Assembly (NCBI RefSeq): GCF_022132145.1
Contig: NZ_JAJISP010000002.1
Span: 434,001-498,000 of the forward strand
Origin: Pseudomonas sp. MMS21 TM103
GTDB taxonomy: Bacteria; Pseudomonadota; Gammaproteobacteria; Pseudomonadales; Pseudomonadaceae
DNA length: 64,000 bases
Reading direction: 5' to 3'
Position numbers and translations under genes: made by a program. Positions within the stretch are counted from its first letter, which is position 1. Each line of letters starts with the position of its first letter. The notes below the pieces were generated by a model. The model saw nothing but the letters and a program-made list of their open reading frames with translations, made no database searches and was not told the origin of the DNA. Below, in pieces: positions 34,584-42,964 of this stretch.

Positions 34584-34612
34584 AGGGCGCCCGAGCAGAC
34601 TCGGCGCGCCCT
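34584..34612 (+). terminator. Rho-independent-like terminator after aer
   Basis: A long GC stem (AGGGCGCCCGAG paired with CTCGG-C-GCGCCCT, one bulge) followed by CAGTTTTG starts 9 bp after the aer stop. Confidence 0.7.
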
Positions 34613-35062
34613 CAGTTTTGGGCACAGCTGGTTCCTCGGCGGCTCTCCGACGGTTGTGCTGCGGATGGTATTCAACGTACGCCAGCAACAGCCCACCGCC
34701 AATCCTATCGCCGCGCCCATCTCAGCTCGACGCCAGAACTGAGCGCTTGTGAAAAACGCTCGCCTACGGCAGCCAGCTGCAAACGACCCGACCGCAGCGC
34801 GCCTTGCCGCACAAGCCTGGAGACGGTCTCGCAACATCACTCGATACTTTCACAACCGCTAAGGACTGACCGGCTCGCAGCTTGAGTTGCTGGCGGCTCG
34901 GCGCGCATTGCGCTCGATCGAACGCCGCCCCAGAGGCGGCGTTTTGCGTAAGAGCCTGCGGCTCTGCAGTCGGCCAACAAATTCCTCACACAGTCCGACA
35001 CGCCCTTCACATCGAGCTCCTTAGGCTTCAGCGATTCTCTCGACCTACGCATAGAGGTTGTT
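34613..35062. other. Gene-free stretch between aer and eptA
   Basis: 450 bp without a supported gene. It holds a second perfect hairpin at 34921-34943 (AACGCCGCC / GGCGGCGTT, 5-nt loop) followed by TTGCG, and a small AGAGCC-TGC-GGCTCT hairpin after it. The left part resembles decayed coding DNA but matches nothing I recognise. The eptA ribosome-binding site (AGAGG) is at its right end. Confidence 0.5.
34921..34946 (+). terminator. Orphan terminator-like hairpin
   Basis: A 9-bp perfect stem with 5-nt loop followed by a short T run lies 115 bp upstream of eptA, with no intact gene before it. It may be the remains of the 3' end of a lost gene. Confidence 0.5.
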
Positions 35063-36037
35063 GTGCGAAAAAACTCGCAGTCAACCGAAACCCCCGAAGG
35101 CGCTGCCAAGTGGACCTTCGCCATCAGCCGCAACGTTCTGATCATGGTCGTTGCTCTGTGGTTGATGCTGACCACGAACATCCCCTTCTGGCGTGATATA
35201 TGGCAAGGCGTGGGCGGCTGGAGCAATGACAACACCCTGTTCCTGATCACCTTGCCAGTGCTGGTTTGGCTGTGGCTTTACCTGTTGCTCAGCCTTCTGG
35301 CCTGGGGCCGGTTGACCAAGGCGATCCTGGGAGTGCTGCTGGTGTCGGCGCCGGCCAGTTTCTTCATGAGCAGCTACGGCATCGTCATCGACTACAACAT
35401 GCTGACTAACGTGCTGCCGACCGACAGTGCCGAGGCCCTGGATCTATTCAGCTGGGGCATGTTCGGCTGGCTGTTGATACTCGGCGTCTTACCCGCATTA
35501 GTCGTCAGCCGGGTACGCCTGATCGCTCGGCCTTGGGCGCATGAGCTGGGCTTCAAGTTGGCGAGCATGGTCCTGGGTCTGGTTTGCCTGGCCGGCATCA
35601 TGATGAGCAACTATCAGTCGTATGCCTCGCTGCTGCGCAATCACCATGAACTGCGCCTGCTGCTGACCCCGTCCAACGTGGTGGCGGCGGTCCATGGTTA
35701 TAGCAAGCGTCAGTTTGCGACTCCGACCAAGCTGCAGGTGGTTGGTGCCGATGCCTACCAGGTCAAGCCGGTAGGTGGAACCGCCAAGCCCAAGGTGACG
35801 ATCCTAGTCGTCGGTGAAACCGCTCGGGCGGCAGACTTTTCACTCAACGGTTACGCTCGCCCGACCAACCCGGAACTGGCCAAGCAGGATGTCATCAGCT
35901 TCAGCAATGCCAGCTCCTGCGGCACCGCCACGGCAGTATCGGTGTCCTGCATGTTCCTCGATGTCGGCCACGACCACTATCGATTGGCACCGCAGAATTT
36001 CAGCCGCAGCCCAAGTTCCACCGCGATGGCGGAGTAG
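35063..36037 (+). pseudogene. eptA: Truncated phosphoethanolamine-lipid A transferase
   Basis: The frame gives 324 residues; intact EptA proteins are about 545. The five-helix membrane domain (about 20-190) is complete, and the periplasmic sulfatase-fold domain begins normally, including the metal-ligand motif VGETARAADFSLNGY and the catalytic-threonine region SSCGTATAVSVSCMF. EptA similarity ends near 35975. The last 20 codons or so read through the reverse strand of a truncated VOC gene. The remaining zinc ligands and C-terminal half are lost, so the enzyme should be inactive. EptA modifies lipid A and gives polymyxin resistance. The start is GTG, preceded by AGAGG. Confidence 0.88.
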
Positions 36038-36090
36038 AAGCTGAACGCGCGGTCGAAGTCGGTGATCCCGACACATACATGAGAAATCAT
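35977..36090 (-). pseudogene. Truncated VOC/glyoxalase-family gene
   Basis: From the ATG at 36090 (AAGGA 7 nt upstream) the minus strand encodes MISHVCVGITDFDRAFSFYS, then LGLRLKFC, the clear start of a VOC-family (glyoxalase/dioxygenase-like) protein. It meets a stop at 35977 after only 37 codons; relatives are about 120-130 residues. Similarity stops where the truncated eptA begins, so both genes lost their 3' parts at the same junction. It was too short to be noticed as an ORF. Confidence 0.75.
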
Positions 36091-36158
36091 GATCCATCCT
36101 TAATCTGCAGCCTGATGGACAGCCACTAGAGTATCCAGCGAAGCGGGTTAACCAAGGC

Positions 36159-36506
36159 TCAGGTCCTGAACATGGACAAATCCAGCGGCAACTCTTCACC
36201 CAACCACGCCGCATGGGTGCTGTGGTCGGCCAGGTCGTCACCGGTCACAGCATGCACCAGGACGGACAAACCCTGGCGATTGCTCTCCAGCCAGGGCAGC
36301 AGCTGATCGAACTGCGCCTGGTCGAAAGACAGCTGGCAGCTCCAGCGCGGATGCGGACCAACCAGGCGCTGATGAATACGCCCGACCTTGACGGCGAATA
36401 GCTCTCCGGCCCGTTCGCAGAGCGAGGTAGTCAGCGCCAGAGACTGCCCATCGAAGTAGACATGCGCATGGTACTGGAGGTAGTCATTGCTGGGGCGCTT
36501 GGTCAT
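36159..36506 (-). CDS. DOPA 4,5-dioxygenase family protein
   Basis: A 115-residue protein with the family pattern YHAHVYFD near the N-terminus, the metal-region VGPHPRWSCQLSF and the C-terminal LVHAVTGDDLADHSTHAAWLG. Relatives are about 110-120 residues, so it looks intact. Fungal and bacterial members cleave catechol rings; the bacterial substrate is usually unknown. Its start overlaps the stop of an upstream ORF remnant as ATGA. Confidence 0.85.
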   Translation of the reverse strand: MTKRPSNDYLQYHAHVYFDGQSLALTTSLCERAGELFAVKVGRIHQRLVGPHPRWSCQLSFDQAQFDQLLPWLESNRQGLSVLVHAVTGDDLADHSTHAAWLGEELPLDLSMFRT

Positions 36507-36760
36507 GGGTGGGCCTCGGTGGGTCGCATAACGAGCAGCATGCCTGCCATGCCTGGCTGATTAGTCTGCTGCGCTCTAGGATAATCCCGCATCTGCACTC
36601 TCGATGGCCAGCACATGAACCGCTTTCGCACGATAGATCGCAAGACCACCAGAGAGAACACGAGCTGCGCCTGATCGGGCCACACACTCACATCGTCCAG
36701 CACGGTGACGGGCACTTTATCAATCCCGAACAAATAACCCTGCGCGGGCAGAGTGCACAA
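36503..36760 (-). pseudogene. ORF upstream of the DOPA-dioxygenase-like gene, probably a remnant
   Basis: An 85-codon frame from a TTG, open back to about 36820, ending ATGA-overlapped with the dioxygenase-like gene. The product contains LPAQGYLFGIDKVPVTVLDD and then loses protein-like character. A neighbouring minus frame (36688-36972) has a VDFGPGVGLIG motif reminiscent of methyltransferases. Together they look like a frameshifted, decayed gene that was coupled to the dioxygenase. I do not recognise the original. Confidence 0.3.
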
Positions 36761-37035
36761 CTCGAGTGCATCTTGGGTCTGTCGGCATCGAGGTCTTGCC
36801 TGGCCAGGCCGGGCCTGTGCTCACAAAGCGCACGCTGCGCCTGATCCGGCTCGCACGGACGTATCCACCCCGGACGCCATACGGCTTTATGACGACCTAT
36901 AAGGCCCACACCCGGGCCGAAATCCACGAATGATAGGCAAGGCAGGTCAACGGTAATGACATCCATGGCCACATGCCATTCAGGGCGCCACTCGAATAGT
37001 GCGAGCAGCGGCCTTGGCTATTTTAATGCATCACA

Positions 37036-37269
37036 TCAATTTTCAGCCTGGCCGCACCTGGCATCGCCTTTAACCGCGCAAGCAAAGGCGGCAGCCTGCT
37101 CACGTTTTAGCAGGTTGCCGCGTTTATGAAACATCCGAGCAAGCAGTCGGTCAGCGCTTAACCCAGGATTACGGTGAAAAAACGCAACCTGCTCATTTTG
37201 CCAACCGCTATTACAGGTAATGCCACCCGCGCCACAAAAACTGCACACTGAGCCGCCCACCCAGATCAA
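37036..37269 (-). CDS. Unrecognised small ORF with a cysteine pair
   Basis: A 77-codon frame whose C-terminal half (NPGLSADRLLARMFHKRGN then LLKREQAAAFACAVKGDA) looks like a real helical protein segment, with a CSFCGAG motif near the N-terminus. No clear ribosome-binding site or neighbour supports it. It may be the C-terminal remnant of a lost gene. Confidence 0.3.
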   Translation of the reverse strand: MIWVGGSVCSFCGAGGITCNSGWQNEQVAFFHRNPGLSADRLLARMFHKRGNLLKREQAAAFACAVKGDARCGQAEN

Positions 37270-37653
37270 AGGACCAGACCACCGACCGTCCGAAGTGCAG
37301 GCCTGAATTAACCCTGCGAAGCGCCTACTAGGGGCAACACCAAGCCTTTGCAGGTTTAATTCAAGGGCGTTTTCTTGATGAAGTCGTTATTTAATTAAGC
37401 ACTCGAGAATACAACTGAACTATAGCGGGCACTTAAGATCTCACCCAGGTTAATGACATTGTGTTGCATTCAGATTTTGTGGGCGCCAGGTTATTTGAAT
37501 GCCAAAATGGCCCCCATGCCAATAAACTGGCGTAGTGCAAATTCACACTCAAACCCCGCTCCCACTTAAGTATTTAATTGTTTAATTGCTCATTATATTT
37601 ATTAGGCCTAAGCTGCAATTTCAATTATGACATCTGAATTTATAGGCCCTAAC
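37270..37653. promoter_or_regulatory. AT-rich upstream region of the autotransporter gene
   Basis: About 380 bp without a gene, visibly AT-richer than the rest of the window, especially 37370-37650. It includes an imperfect 12-bp inverted repeat (CGCCAGGTTATT at 37484-37495, AATAAACTGGCG at 37521-37532, one mismatch). The promoter of the autotransporter should be here. AT-rich upstream DNA of this kind is often bound by H-NS-like MvaT/MvaU silencers in pseudomonads (inference). Confidence 0.4.
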
Positions 37654-39747
37654 ATGAAAGCCAGCTTAATCTCTCTAGCGGTGGCGACTGCCATTTTGGC
37701 TTGGGCACCAATCAGCTCGGCGCGCGAGGCCGTCGCGCTTCCAGGCGTGGTAGGTGCAGAAGGTGAGCTGAATGGCGTAGACACCACGGGCGGTGCCACA
37801 TTGACCATTACCGACGGCCAGAATATCAATACCAATAACGATCTCGGTGGTGCTTTTACCACTGACTCCAACAATACGGGCAACCTTCTGTTCCTTGGCG
37901 ACTCGATCGTGACCGGCTCTACCGGTGAGCCAGGGGTTCTGTTCCTCAATATCAGCGCCGGCGCCGCTGGTAAAGAGGTGACCTTCAACGGTGATGTCCA
38001 CGCAACTACAACAGAGATCAGCGGGACAGGGACCATAAACTTCAATGGTGACGTGATCTCAGCACCGGTATTTCTTGGTGATGGCTTTCTCAATCTCGGT
38101 GCCGGCAACTTATTGACAGGCGCCATTACGACCAATACCGCAAATACCGGTACGTTGACGCTGAATAGCGGTAGCAATGTAAACGGGGCTATTGGTGGCG
38201 CAAGTGGGCTGAAGCAAATCATTGTATCGGGTGGCGATGCGTCTATTACCGGTTCCGTGCAGGCTCAAGGATTCAGCCTCGGCGCGAACACACTGAACAT
38301 TACTGGGGCGTTGACCACTAACGCCAACGGCACGATTGCGACCACGCTCGCCGGTAATACCGTGTACGGTAATATTCAGCCGTCCGGCTCCTCGAATATT
38401 AGTGCTGCTGGCATTACGGTAATTCCAACCGTATCTGGCGTATTGACCGCCGGTACGACATTCAGGATTGTTGGCGGCCTTTCCGGCACCAACGGGGCAT
38501 TGGTGACGGTTCTCAACACCAACCCGCTTTACACCTTCTCCAGCGTGCCTACCACCACTGGCGACGTACTCATAACGGTTGAGTCGGTTTCCTTGGGCTC
38601 GCCTGTCGCCGACTTGGCAGCAGGGTCACTCCTTGGCGCAGCTGCTCCAGTGGGTTCCGATCTGCTGGCCATTCAGGGCGCAGTCCTTGCTCTTCCCAAT
38701 GCACCCGCCGTCAAGAATGCCTTGGTTCAGCTGGCCCCGAGCAGCACCAACCTGGCAGCCCCCTGGGTTGCAGGTCAGACGACGCGTCTTATGGAAGACA
38801 TGTTGCAGGCTCGCGTGGAAGAGATCCAGAACATGTGCTGTGACGCCAACTGCGGGCCAAATAAGCCCAAAGAAGTGCGTAACTGTGAAGGTGACGAGCA
38901 GCAGAGTAACTGGTGGGCCAAGAGCTTTGGCAGTGTAGGCAACCAAGACGATGTCAATGATAGTAACGGCTATGACACTGAAACCTATGGTCTGGTGCTG
39001 GCTTATGATCGACCAGTGAGCGTCGACACCCGCATTGGTGTAAGCGCGGGTTATGCAAATAGCACAATTGATGGAAATGGCTCCTCTGGCGAGACAAATA
39101 TCGATTCTTACCAGCTGACCGGTTATCTCAACTACACGCCCGGCCCTTGGTATGTTCAGGGCGCTTTGACCGCCGGGATAGACCATTATGACGGGAAACG
39201 CCAAATCACATTGCCAGGCGTGAATCGCGTCGCGAAATCTGACTATGATGGGCAGCAGTACACCGCTCTCGTCTCGGCAGGGAAACATTTTTACCTTGAC
39301 CAAGCGGTCACTGTTACACCGTTCGCATCACTGCAGACGTCGCTTATCAACGTCGACAGTTATACCGAGCGCGGCGCTGGTGCATTGAATCACCGCGTGG
39401 ATGATCAAGATTACACCCTGACACAATCAGGTTTGGGTGTGAAAATTGAACGCGTCATTCAATCCGGTGCCAACACATATTCCCCTGAGGCTCATGTTAA
39501 ATGGCTGCATGATTTCAGCGACACGACCACGGAACAGACCGCAGCCTTCGCGGGTAGCGGCTCAGCGTTTAACGTGAAAGGGATAGAGCAAGATCGGGAT
39601 ATGTACAACGTCGGAGCAGGCGTTACATTCCTCTCCTGCAATTGCGATAACAATTCTTGGACGGTCAAGGGCCAATACGACTACAAGTGGAATGATAGCG
39701 ACTACTCGTCAAATCAGTTGTCACTTATAGCGAGTCTTAAATACTAA
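37654..39747 (+). CDS. Autotransporter with C-terminal beta-barrel
   Basis: 697 residues from the ATG at 37654; the frame is open to 37627. Signal peptide residues 1-23 (MKASLISLAVATAILAWAPISSA). Residues 30-315 form a short Gly/Asn/Thr-rich passenger of beta-helix type (repeated TGTINFNGDV and GTLTLNSGSNVNGAI patterns), 318-392 a helical linker, and about 415-697 the autotransporter barrel ending in an aromatic residue (ASLKY). All six cysteines are clustered: 395, 396, 400 and 411 before the barrel, and 662 and 664 in a late strand. No protease or adhesin catalytic motif is seen. Base composition is AT-richer than the core genes, suggesting transfer. Confidence 0.9.
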   Translation: MKASLISLAVATAILAWAPISSAREAVALPGVVGAEGELNGVDTTGGATLTITDGQNINTNNDLGGAFTTDSNNTGNLLFLGDSIVTGSTGEPGVLFLNISAGAAGKEVTFNGDVHATTTEISGTGTINFNGDVISAPVFLGDGFLNLGAGNLLTGAITTNTANTGTLTLNSGSNVNGAIGGASGLKQIIVSGGDASITGSVQAQGFSLGANTLNITGALTTNANGTIATTLAGNTVYGNIQPSGSSNISAAGITVIPTVSGVLTAGTTFRIVGGLSGTNGALVTVLNTNPLYTFSSVPTTTGDVLITVESVSLGSPVADLAAGSLLGAAAPVGSDLLAIQGAVLALPNAPAVKNALVQLAPSSTNLAAPWVAGQTTRLMEDMLQARVEEIQNMCCDANCGPNKPKEVRNCEGDEQQSNWWAKSFGSVGNQDDVNDSNGYDTETYGLVLAYDRPVSVDTRIGVSAGYANSTIDGNGSSGETNIDSYQLTGYLNYTPGPWYVQGALTAGIDHYDGKRQITLPGVNRVAKSDYDGQQYTALVSAGKHFYLDQAVTVTPFASLQTSLINVDSYTERGAGALNHRVDDQDYTLTQSGLGVKIERVIQSGANTYSPEAHVKWLHDFSDTTTEQTAAFAGSGSAFNVKGIEQDRDMYNVGAGVTFLSCNCDNNSWTVKGQYDYKWNDSDYSSNQLSLIASLKY

Positions 39748-39764
39748 TACGATGTAGCTAGGAC

Positions 39765-39814
39765 GGGCCGCGATTCTTTCTGTGAGTGTTATTGCACAGA
39801 AAGAATCGCGGCCC
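39765..39814. terminator. Perfect 20-bp inverted repeat after the autotransporter
   Basis: Two 20-nt arms are perfectly complementary around the loop AGTGTTATTG. It starts 17 bp after the autotransporter stop and is followed by only TTAATTT on the plus strand. It should act as a strong 3' end structure, possibly for both directions. Confidence 0.75.
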
Positions 39815-39949
39815 TTAATTTCGAGGCATGCGCCAGTAATGGTCGCTGCCTACCCCTCCGCAATGCCAGCAACTTAAGAAACTTCCCAATAAATATCCTA
39901 CGGGTATCGCTCCAATCAGCACATGGGAGAATTTCTCTTCGCCTCCCAA
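39815..39949 (-). pseudogene. Possible small ORF or remnant
   Basis: A 44-codon minus-strand frame from a TTG, with a hydrophobic centre (FSHVLIGAIPVGYLLGSFLS) and a CWHCGG motif, ending directly at the 20-bp inverted repeat. No clear ribosome-binding site. It might be the end of a lost membrane-protein gene. Confidence 0.2.
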
Positions 39950-39959
39950 TCCACACCCC

Positions 39960-41083
39960 GTGATAACGACCGCCATACCCTGGCCTGAAAGTTGTAGTCG
40001 AGTAGACTATGGCGTTAGCACCGCGGCTCCCACAGATTCGGTGTTTAAGCCCGTAGCCCTATGCTCACCAATAGCGGCGACAGCGGGCCGCCTTACGGCG
40101 CTCCAGAGCAGTTTCTCTCGACCGCACCATCAAACACTGTCCCCGTATTCAGATAATTAAAAAATCCGTCGGATATCCGTCCGCGCCAATCCGCCTGCCT
40201 AAACGATCAATCAAAATATCGTGATCGATCCACTCGAAGAACTGGACCAGATCACCATCCACTCCTACTTTCCAAGCCGAGGACATGTAGCGCTAGGCAG
40301 CCAAAATGGCGTTCTGCCTACAACGCCCGGGCGAAAAGCGTAGCGGTGTTTACTGAAAGTCGGATCCAGTAATGACAGCAACACTTGCAGCAATGTTTGC
40401 TGGGCCAAACGGCCGGCAGGTTACCCTGCTCGCTTTCACCGCCGCCAGGATTGGGGATCGCCACTCATTGGACCGATAGACACCTGATAGAAGCTGTTCA
40501 CAGATCGCAGCTCACTGTGTGAGCAGGTCCGCGGTTGTCCGATTGATATCCAGACCATCGACCCCGCCACACCTTTGTTGGCCTTGACCCGGTTTTCTCT
40601 CGCCAAGGCCCGCTCCAGCAGTCACTGTCCGGCGCTGGCGGATTCATCCTGTGGGAGATTGACCTTGTCGCTGATGGGGCCGACCACGACTTCACCGCGC
40701 CCAATCTCAATCAGCCCCACGTTGGCGGACATCTGACCGACGGGCTACATGATCATGGCCTATCATGCTTTCTCTGATTCAACCCTTGGTCAAAAAAGAC
40801 TACTCCGGCCCCTGCTGACGTCTCGTTCCGAGCAACGCCGTCGCCCATTCAGGCACAAAGCGAGAGCTCCCCGGGTAGGCACGCAATCCTTCGCCGACAA
40901 CCGCCAGATTTACGCCGCAGCCCCTTACAGGAGCGTAGCGGTTATCTGCCCGCTCGCCCTGGTCGGCCTCGTCTCGCACTTGGTACTTGTTCATCGGCTC
41001 ACAGCTGCGATTCACTTCGCTCACTGTGGCCAGCTTACGGCAGGACTTTCACCCGCAAGATTGCGCCCATAATGGACGCGCAC
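39960..41083 (-). mobile_element. Decayed class C group II intron with broken maturase gene
   Basis: The 5' end is GTGCGCG, starting at 41083 immediately after the U-tract of the rpsA terminator. Intron RNA signatures follow on the minus strand: GCGGGTGAAAGTCCTGC (41056-41040), TACCCGGGGAGCTCTCGC (near 40879-40860) and GTCAGCAGGGGCC (40819-40807). From about 40620 downward there are frames of a group II reverse transcriptase: VAIPNPGGGE (40464-40435), LLDPTFSKHRYAFRPG (40372-40325), DHDILIDRLGRRIG (40226-40185) and GGPLSPLL (40092-40069), broken by frameshifts and stops. One stop replaces the Q of PQGG at 40095-40093. The 3' domains V/VI are not found, so the 3' boundary is uncertain. Confidence 0.85.
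40000..40620 (-). pseudogene. Group II intron reverse transcriptase/maturase remnant
   Basis: Fragments in all three minus-strand frames assemble, in correct order, into the N-terminal and RT1-RT4 part of a class C intron-encoded protein: ERALARENRVKANKG, GVDGLDINRTTADLLTQ, CEQLLSGVY, VAIPNPGGGE, DPTFSKHRYAFRPG, GVDGDLVQFFEWIDHDILI, GAP-stop-GGPLSPLL. At least two frameshifts and three in-frame stops are present. The catalytic YADD block and the maturase X domain are not recognisable. Intact relatives are about 420 residues. Confidence 0.8.
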
Positions 41084-41112
41084 AAAAAAGGGCGACCGAA
41101 GTCGCCCTTTTT
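41084..41112 (-). terminator. rpsA terminator
   Basis: GGGCGAC pairs with GTCGCCC across a TTCG tetraloop on the minus strand, followed by six T (41089-41084). It lies 16 bp downstream of the rpsA stop. The group II intron begins at the next base. Confidence 0.93.
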
Positions 41113-41127
41113 CTGGATTAGCTGAAC

Positions 41128-42813
41128 TTAGTTCTGCTTTTCCATTTGTGCACGGAGCAGATCACCAATGGTGGTCGGACCCGAAGCATCAACTTCCTGC
41201 TTGCGCATTTCCTTGATAGCTTCTTTCTCGTCTTCAACGTCTTTCGACTTGACCGACAAGCTGATTACACGGCTCTTGCGATCGACGCTGATGATCTTGG
41301 CTTCTACTTCTTCGCCTTCTTTCAGCACGTTGCGCGCATCTTCAACGCGATCACGGCTGATTTCGGAGGCTTTCAGTGTGGCTTCGATACCATCGGCCAG
41401 AGTGATGATGGCGCCTTTAGCGTCAACTTCTTTAACGATACCGCGCACGATGGTGCCTTTATCGTTAACAGCAACGTAGTCGGAGAACGGATCTTCTTCC
41501 AGCTGCTTGATGCCGAGGGAAATGCGCTCACGCTCCGGATCAACGGAGAGGATAACGGTTTCCAGCTCGTCGCCCTTCTTGAAGCGGCGTACAGCTTCTT
41601 CGCCTACTTCGTTCCAGGAGATATCGGACAGGTGAACGAGGCCGTCGATGCCGCCATCCAGACCAATGAAGATACCGAAATCGGTGATCGACTTGATGGT
41701 GCCGGAGATCTTGTCGCCCTTGTTGAACTGACCGGAGAAATCTTCCCACGGGTTAGTTTTGCACTGCTTGATACCCAGGGAGATACGACGACGCTCTTCG
41801 TCGATATCCAGAACCTGAACTTCCACTTCGTCGCCAACCTGTACGACTTTGGACGGGTGGATGTTCTTGTTGGTCCAATCCATTTCGGATACGTGCACCA
41901 AGCCTTCCACGCCTTCTTCCAGCTCTGCGAAGCAGCCGTAGTCGGTCAGGTTGGTTACGCGTGCATTGACGCGAGTGCCTTCCGGGTAACGAGCCTTGAT
42001 AGCAACCCATGGGTCTTCGCCCAGTTGCTTCAGACCCAGGGAAACGCGGTTACGCTCGCGATCGTACTTCAGTACCTTGACATCGATCTCGTCGCCAACA
42101 TTGACGATCTCGGACGGGTGCTTGATACGTTTCCAGGCCATGTCGGTGATGTGCAACAGTCCATCGACGCCGCCCAGATCGACGAATGCGCCGTAATCCG
42201 TGAGGTTCTTGACGATACCCTTGACTTGCTGACCTTCCTGCAAGGATTCCAGCAGAGCTTCGCGCTCGGCGCTGTTCTCGGCTTCCAGCACGCTGCGGCG
42301 GGAAACGACAACGTTGTTGCGCTTCTGGTCCAGCTTGATGACTTTGAATTCGAGCTCTTTGCCTTCCAGGTGAGTGGTATCACGCACCGGACGGACATCG
42401 ACCAAGGAACCTGGGAGGAACGCACGGATGCCGTTAACGTCGACAGTGAAGCCGCCTTTAACCTTACCGTTGATAACGCCCTTGACCACTTCCTCAGCGG
42501 CGAAAGCTGCTTCCAGAACAATCCAGCACTCTGCACGCTTGGCTTTTTCGCGGGACAGCTTGGTTTCACCAAAGCCATCTTCAACCGCGTCCAGCGCAAC
42601 GTGAACTTCGTCACCGACCTTGATGGTCAGTTCGCCAGCGTCGTTGTGGAACTGCTCCAGCGGGATGAGGCCTTCCGACTTCAAACCAGCGTGAACGGTT
42701 ACCCAACCAGCTTGGTAATCGATGTCGACGATGATAGCGGTGATGATTGAGCCAGCCTGAAGATTCAGGGTTTTTAGGCTTTCTTCAAACAGTTCAGCAA
42801 AGCTTTCGCTCAT
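41128..42813 (-). CDS. rpsA: 30S ribosomal protein S1
   Basis: 561 residues with six S1/OB-fold repeats, the normal length. S1 unfolds mRNA leaders for initiation on the 30S subunit. It starts [17 protein letters not shown] at the ATG at 42813; the frame remains open to 42882 without family support. Repeats 3-6 show the strong RNA-binding pattern (for example [17 protein letters not shown]-like and [20 protein letters not shown]). It follows cmk as in nearly all gamma-proteobacteria. In pseudomonads ihfB usually comes next, but here the terminator and an intron remnant do. Confidence 0.98.
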
Positions 42814-42964
42814 TTTAATTCCTGTAGATTCAGGGCGGGGGATCCGCCCAAACCACATTCCAGACAATGTGGGTACGTTCATATAAAAGAAGGCACACGG
42901 GACTAGGACTGGTCTCCCGCATGCTTCCTGGTGAGCTGATCAGCTTAAGCAGCTGAGGCTCTTG

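Follow-up and report, generated by a model that had tools for sequence, protein, structure and literature searches.

A truncated and mutated class C group II intron behind the rpsA terminator of Pseudomonas sp. MMS21 TM103, one of four fossils of its subfamily in the genome

The window, a stretch of 64,000 nucleotides from Pseudomonas sp. MMS21 TM103, carries at 40055–41081 on its minus strand what we take, with a probability of about 95%, to be a class C (IIC) group II intron reduced to its truncated and mutated 5' part; on this reading it inserted in sense orientation behind the rpsA terminator at TTTTTTGT| and later suffered 3' loss and drift. This agrees with the first-pass annotation, which had proposed a decayed class C intron on this terminator: an Rfam group II RNA model matches here, the maturase fragments resemble the GsI-IIC reverse transcriptase (RT), and close relatives lack the intron. 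With recognizable homology, a lost open frame and one lost end, the stretch has the features of a degenerate intron fragment. The kind of object is already known, a decayed class C group II intron fragment obeying the known terminator rule, and is in that respect ordinary.

The RNA homology covers the 5' 60% of the intron. An nhmmer profile built from 16 distinct near-full-length Pseudomonas copies gave a single match in which 41079–40065 corresponds to profile positions 3–1113 (E 4.3e-219), and a looser blastn run extends the homology to 40055, placing the remnant at positions 1 to about 1113–1124 of 1837. Blastn identity to the copies L003 and L002 is 70–74%. A DNA search of 57 genomes, the present one included, found matches in 6; besides the genome itself, G004 and G010 matched over 1.1 kb at 70–72%, the G010 copy being a full-length intron of 1837 nt (L003:1499–3335), and the other three matched over short stretches only. 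The Rfam model RF02001 (group-II-D1D4-3) recognized the domain I–IV region at 41044–40881 (48.1 bits, above the gathering score of 32; E 4e-8), its output leaving the class behind the model unstated. A class C covariance-model hit starting at 41083 with no domain V had been anticipated; the group II match and the missing domain V were borne out, while the position was not, as the match begins at 41044 and the intron at 41081. The element had also been drawn down to 39960, which we cannot retain, given that homology to the intron stops at 40065–40055 and the lower part overlaps an unrelated transposase-element relic at 39995–39861.

The host gene upstream of the insertion is rpsA (30S ribosomal protein S1; 41128–42882, minus strand, a 584 aa ORF), whose 3' end shares 97% identity with those of the two genomes most like it and which was located in other Pseudomonas by tblastn with its product as query. 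Its intrinsic terminator, GAAAAA-GGGCGAC-TTCG-GTCGCCC-TTTTTT at 41084–41113 on the minus strand, folds as a 13-pair hairpin, and the rpsA ends of relatives carry a terminator of the same kind. After the T tract the minus strand reads GTGCGCGTCCATTATGGGCGC, and the letters GTGCGCG directly behind the six-T tract and in the same orientation as rpsA are indeed as first reported. Their reading as the intron 5' consensus beginning at 41083 holds for the presence of an intron and fails for its first base. The 30 loci whose rpsA ends are most similar comprise the window itself, one locus (G096) with another class C-like intron start, and 28 that have no intron; in 23 of these 28, GT forms the next two bases and is followed by native sequence such as GCCTGAAATTTG. 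Empty sites mostly read TTTTTTGT|.. and occupied ones TTTTTTGT|GTGCGCCC, and the intron copies in G172 and G295 share the window's tail, reading TTTTTTGT|GTGCGCCC. When the genome is aligned with those of G245, G103 and G201, the alignments break off at window positions 41080, 41082 and 41081, respectively. Because the empty and occupied rpsA sites and the alignment ends agree, the GT at 41083–41082 (minus strand), earlier taken as intron bases 1 and 2, is read as the native 5' exon tail, and by this sequence comparison the intron start is 41081, where GTGCG has decayed to GCGCG. Nearly all copies having a 5' end start with GTGCG directly behind the preceding sequence, mostly a terminator tail, the exceptions being the window, L004, L019 and L039. 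With the register starting at 41081, the first intron hairpin (GCGTCCA-TTA-TGGGCGC, 41063–41079, minus strand, aligned with GCGCCCA-GCA-TGGGCGC of intact copies) still pairs in the RNA fold.

The coding part is equally broken. When an intact 430 aa relative was used as the tblastn query, a maturase/RT pseudogene was found at 40060–40678 on the minus strand, spread over three frames that contain stops and covering residues about 4–222 of 430, in keeping with the frameshifts and stops noted at first sight. The frame homology ends before YADD, leaving the window without the YADD region and the maturase domain, and Pfam at E up to 1 found nothing in the broken frames (one short ORF and three read-through frames). 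The window thus holds only fragments of a class C type RT/maturase, assigned through homology to the 430 aa relative, which among solved chains is closest to the GsI-IIC RT.

Intact full-length copies have a conserved hairpin-rich 3' end in common. A home-made D5–D6 model derived from ten 3' ends detected nothing credible in 39500–41500, while the genome's three other fossils scored 61.6–78 bits with it, so the early remark that domains V and VI are not seen is upheld and the window copy is a fragment rather than a working class C member. Its top hit there (13.7 bits, E 0.0047) falls on the rpsA terminator itself; it counts against the fragment reading, and we take it as a hairpin artefact. 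Because the Rfam D5 model was not listed at E 0.05 even for the intact copies L002 and L003, the absence of domain V is judged only from the home-made model and the profile.

Beyond the break, a spacer at 39996–40054 separates the remnant from a plus-strand relic at 39861–39995, which matches stretches of G309 (80%), G223 (72%) and G103 (78%, first 92 nt only). In G309 the reading frame beside the matched stretch hits the transposase DDE domain PF01609 (E 3e-7), and the relic is probably part of a DDE-transposase insertion sequence, of which it may represent one end. When four copies were scored for the missing intron 3' part in 40056–39828, spacer included, it did no better than in dinucleotide shuffles (72–196 of 200 as good). 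A candidate D6 remnant at 39860–39828 was rejected, as 19% of random stretches score equally well. The minus-strand segment 39817–39827 (GCCTCGAAATT, against GCCTGAAATTTG at the empty site of G245) could be the start of the native 3' exon: in comparisons with seven relatives, the fraction of random stretches scoring as well was 0.0002–0.0006 for three, 0.0086 for one and 0.06–0.35 for three, at a place picked by eye among about 230 positions, which makes 39827 a weak candidate for that boundary. Next to it, a perfect inverted repeat (GGGCCGCGATTCTTTCTGTG...CACAGAAAGAATCGCGGCCC, 39765–39814) lies at the convergent end of ORF 37627–39747 and is possibly the terminator of that ORF. This large ORF, autotransporter-like by eye and with an 82% relative elsewhere in G245 (C9:191142–193272), belongs to the block 34611–41080 behind rpsA that breaks the alignment with G245.

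The window copy has company. A genome search with the L014 intron as query (L014 and L002 are one and the same copy) revealed four fossils of the subfamily: the window's, C4:5281–6215, C6:619531–620059 and C10:212109–212495 (five further matches of 20–34 bp had E values of 0.05 or worse, and scores were obtained for 40 of the 43 first-look candidates). All eight maturase matches in the genome are fragments, no intact copy of the subfamily was found there, and no GIIM domain appeared at E 0.001. At sites identical in 11 intact copies, changes amount to 121/739 (16.4%) in the window, 81/569 (14.2%) in C4, 52/281 (18.5%) in C6 and 35/222 (15.8%) in C10; a broken copy in the relative G103 shows 17/433 (3.9%). 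The four fossils group with L002 at 83%. The C4 and C6 (C6b) fossils share 18 changed sites against 8.0 expected, eight of them with the same base, while the window shows no clear excess with any of them (6 against 4.3 expected with C4, 4 against 1.5 with C6b and 2 against 4.4 with C10). As to a common source, we claim nothing beyond an L002-like origin. We also considered an age paradox, in which the fossil would be older than the split of the host from its empty-site relatives, on the basis of a terminal branch of 0.45 for the window fossil in a GTR tree. This idea is retained only as a point against the main reading: the branch is probably inflated because the rate variation of the model reflects constraint on active copies, and 121/739 lies nearer the host distance.

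Three other explanations were weighed against an intron decaying in place. The RT domain alone is common to retrons, diversity-generating retroelements and DRT systems, and the intact relative does match NCBIfam retron and Drt models at 35–66 bits, yet all of these scores are far under the cut-offs of 200–600. A remnant of such an element is hardly credible in view of the RNA: the Rfam D1–D4 match lies in the window, and the full-length copies share a 3' end rich in hairpins and have their 5' ends behind terminators. The protein argues likewise. The 430 aa group II RT/maturase is encoded by the G295 copy at the rpsA terminator; it contains both RT and GIIM domains (PF00078 and PF08388) and reaches 405 bits with the group II RT/maturase model TIGR04416, above the cut-off of 300. 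Its best solved match is the GsI-IIC RT at 410 bits, against 133 for LtrA and 115 for a Cas6-RT-Cas1 fusion, whereas retron, DRT and other RT chains give 57 bits or less; a best match of the maturase fragments to a retron or similar element, which would have overturned the first reading, is thus not what we see. The chains 5hhj and 5hhl (271–272 bits), named 'Retron-type reverse transcriptase' by their depositors, are RT domains of group II intron maturases.

A co-opted remnant, which might for example serve in the rpsA 3' end with its 5' hairpin backing up the terminator, could be suggested by the fact that terminator and first intron hairpin both still fold (the 68 nt that span the two give z −5.35) and by the first 80 intron positions being the best-kept part (86–87% against 72–74% elsewhere). 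However, the terminator is present in intron-free relatives and probably carries the z-score of the joint fold, and it is these same 80 positions that many other short fragments match, so a good match there need not mean function; since the remnant is moreover absent from the closest relatives, we regard co-option as very unlikely. The possibility that the fossil arrived already decayed with adjoining DNA by recombination behind rpsA deserves more attention, although we still consider it improbable. In its favour, the G245 alignment stops at 41080 and resumes at 34611, showing that this genome has a different block behind rpsA, and the decay exceeds the simple expectation from 4-fold sites: the 4-fold distance to G245, whose site is empty, is 0.20 in total or about 0.10 per lineage, and the 0.164 at invariant sites is somewhat more than expected for arrival after the split from G245, which counts against decay in place. 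This excess may be due to codon-usage selection at 4-fold sites, and import of the region from another lineage keeps a share of the probability. On the other side, the similarly decayed fossil at C6:619531–620059 seems to be missing from that place in the closest relatives searched, which would call for a second import, and the two other fossils have decayed to a similar degree. At the C6 place, the best match in the seven closest of nine relatives searched covers the flanking terminator and tRNA only; pieces resembling this fossil in some relatives sit on other contigs.

Class C introns are known to target terminators (PMC8919778 and PMC4424553), and the preference, on which the first interpretation had relied, was found again in our material. 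With the window excluded and counting distinct 5' ends of the subfamily for which the match begins at position 5 or earlier and at least 40 nt lie upstream, 48/54 stand behind a terminator-like hairpin with a T tract, compared with 79/3000 random places in the same loci; in the window, too, an intrinsic terminator lies directly upstream on the same strand. After the window was added, the 55 upstream stretches fell into 49 clusters, of which five had several members: rpsA (three, window included), a gene we take from its C-terminal sequence to be rpoS (two), and three further pairs. A one-genome-per-species scan for an rpsA-type terminator followed within 0–8 nt by GTGCGYC returned 68 stretches, 11 of them with rpsA upstream or a maturase downstream and rpsA in 10 of these 11; as the scan was aimed at rpsA-like terminators, a preference cannot follow from it alone.

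At the rpsA site, the present subfamily was found full-length in P. umsongensis, P. sp. GM21 (with a frame shortened to 340 aa) and P. fluorescens HK44, and in P. fluorescens H24 the contig ends at the intron start behind rpsA. The umsongensis and GM21 copies (L072 and L073) form a sister pair at 98%, and the HK44 copy shares 92.7% identity with L072, which in turn has a second copy in its genome that matches it exactly over 1833 nt; we do not claim that the three rpsA copies are mutually independent, and one old insertion would explain all of them. Stutzerimonas chloritidismutans AW-1 carries at rpsA a maturase that is 48% identical to that of the present subfamily and represents a second subfamily. 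UMAB-08 has part of that subfamily at rpsA, Irchel s3b2 and the MAG JAHIWP010000024 show its first ~119 and ~107 bases, respectively, before the contig ends, and P. juntendi shows its first eight letters only, at a contig end. P. putida NBRC 14671 has the pattern letters only and probably no intron. This second class C-like subfamily (start GTGCGCCAGGCATGGCGCG; L122, L163, L150 and L005 in Pseudomonas and Stutzerimonas) gives 138.8 bits with RF02001 in L005, and it starts at the rpsA terminator in L122, L163 and L150. We infer that at least three insertion events at rpsA seem to be needed: that of the window, that of the umsongensis/GM21/HK44 group and that of the second subfamily. Among the matches listed for open-licence papers, no title dealt with class C introns at rpsA. 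It is a tentative proposal, to which we give slightly less than even odds, that class C introns of Pseudomonas and its relatives favour the rpsA terminator as a landing site, which at least two subfamilies reached independently, and that this genome records one intron boom and bust with four dead insertions about equally old and none alive.

Shorter relics of the same intron were also encountered. L075, L076, L077 and L078 (G104:C100, G258:C1, G070:C1 and G058:C48) are very short derivatives, of which L075–L077 keep both ends (in L075, positions 1–127 joined to about 1736–1837) and score 53.7, 33.5 and 111.3 bits, respectively, with the D5–D6 model, while L078 has positions 1–78 beside 682–801 only. 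L079, L080 and L081 (G104:C5, G030:C3 and G245:C4) are 5' fragments of ~118–127 nt, 96–100% identical to the L003 intron and situated behind terminators; the L081 fragment runs into a contig end.

The proposed history would begin with a class C intron inserting just behind the rpsA intrinsic terminator in sense orientation, an insertion probably tolerated next to an essential gene since transcription ends at the terminator, ahead of the intron. Later the 3' 40% would have been lost, including the end of the RT domain, the maturase domain, D5 and D6, and a transposase-bearing element may have left its relic next to the break. The remainder would then have drifted until 16% of the sites invariant among the 11 intact copies were changed. 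As judged from sequence, the remnant should be unable to splice or move, with no intact subfamily copy found in the genome to help, and presumably serves no function at present. A known insertion rule is here cleanly preserved in fossil form: related species show the site empty, occupied and decayed, which lets the insertion point be read to the base. That introns have landed at the rpsA terminator more than once offers a way to ask why one terminator is a better target than another. We find the fossil group and the reused site mildly interesting, and the rest ordinary.

Compared with known systems, the remnant shares with bacterial class C (IIC) introns the D1–D4 RNA match, a class C-like maturase in intact homologues and same-orientation insertion immediately behind an intrinsic terminator; unlike them it has been cut short, with neither D5 nor D6, without the last part of the RT domain and without a maturase domain. 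Most bacterial copies are truncated or inactivated, according to PMC4424553. Like the fragmented group II introns described in a survey of Enterobacteriales (PMC3522654), it is a dead fragment related to known full-length introns. The survey reports that a fragment there was generally not accompanied by another copy of its intron within its genome; in the present case, by contrast, four similarly decayed fossils of one subfamily occur in one genome with no survivor found, which may be the trace of a past spread followed by extinction. The nearest parallel at the site itself is P. umsongensis DSM 16611 (NZ_NIWU01000002, L165), where the rpsA terminator is followed at the identical base by a class C intron. 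Unlike the window copy, this intron is full length (1833 nt) with a 430 aa open frame, and it is the sister of the GM21 copy (98%), whereas the window fossil groups with L002 and the other fossils of its own genome.
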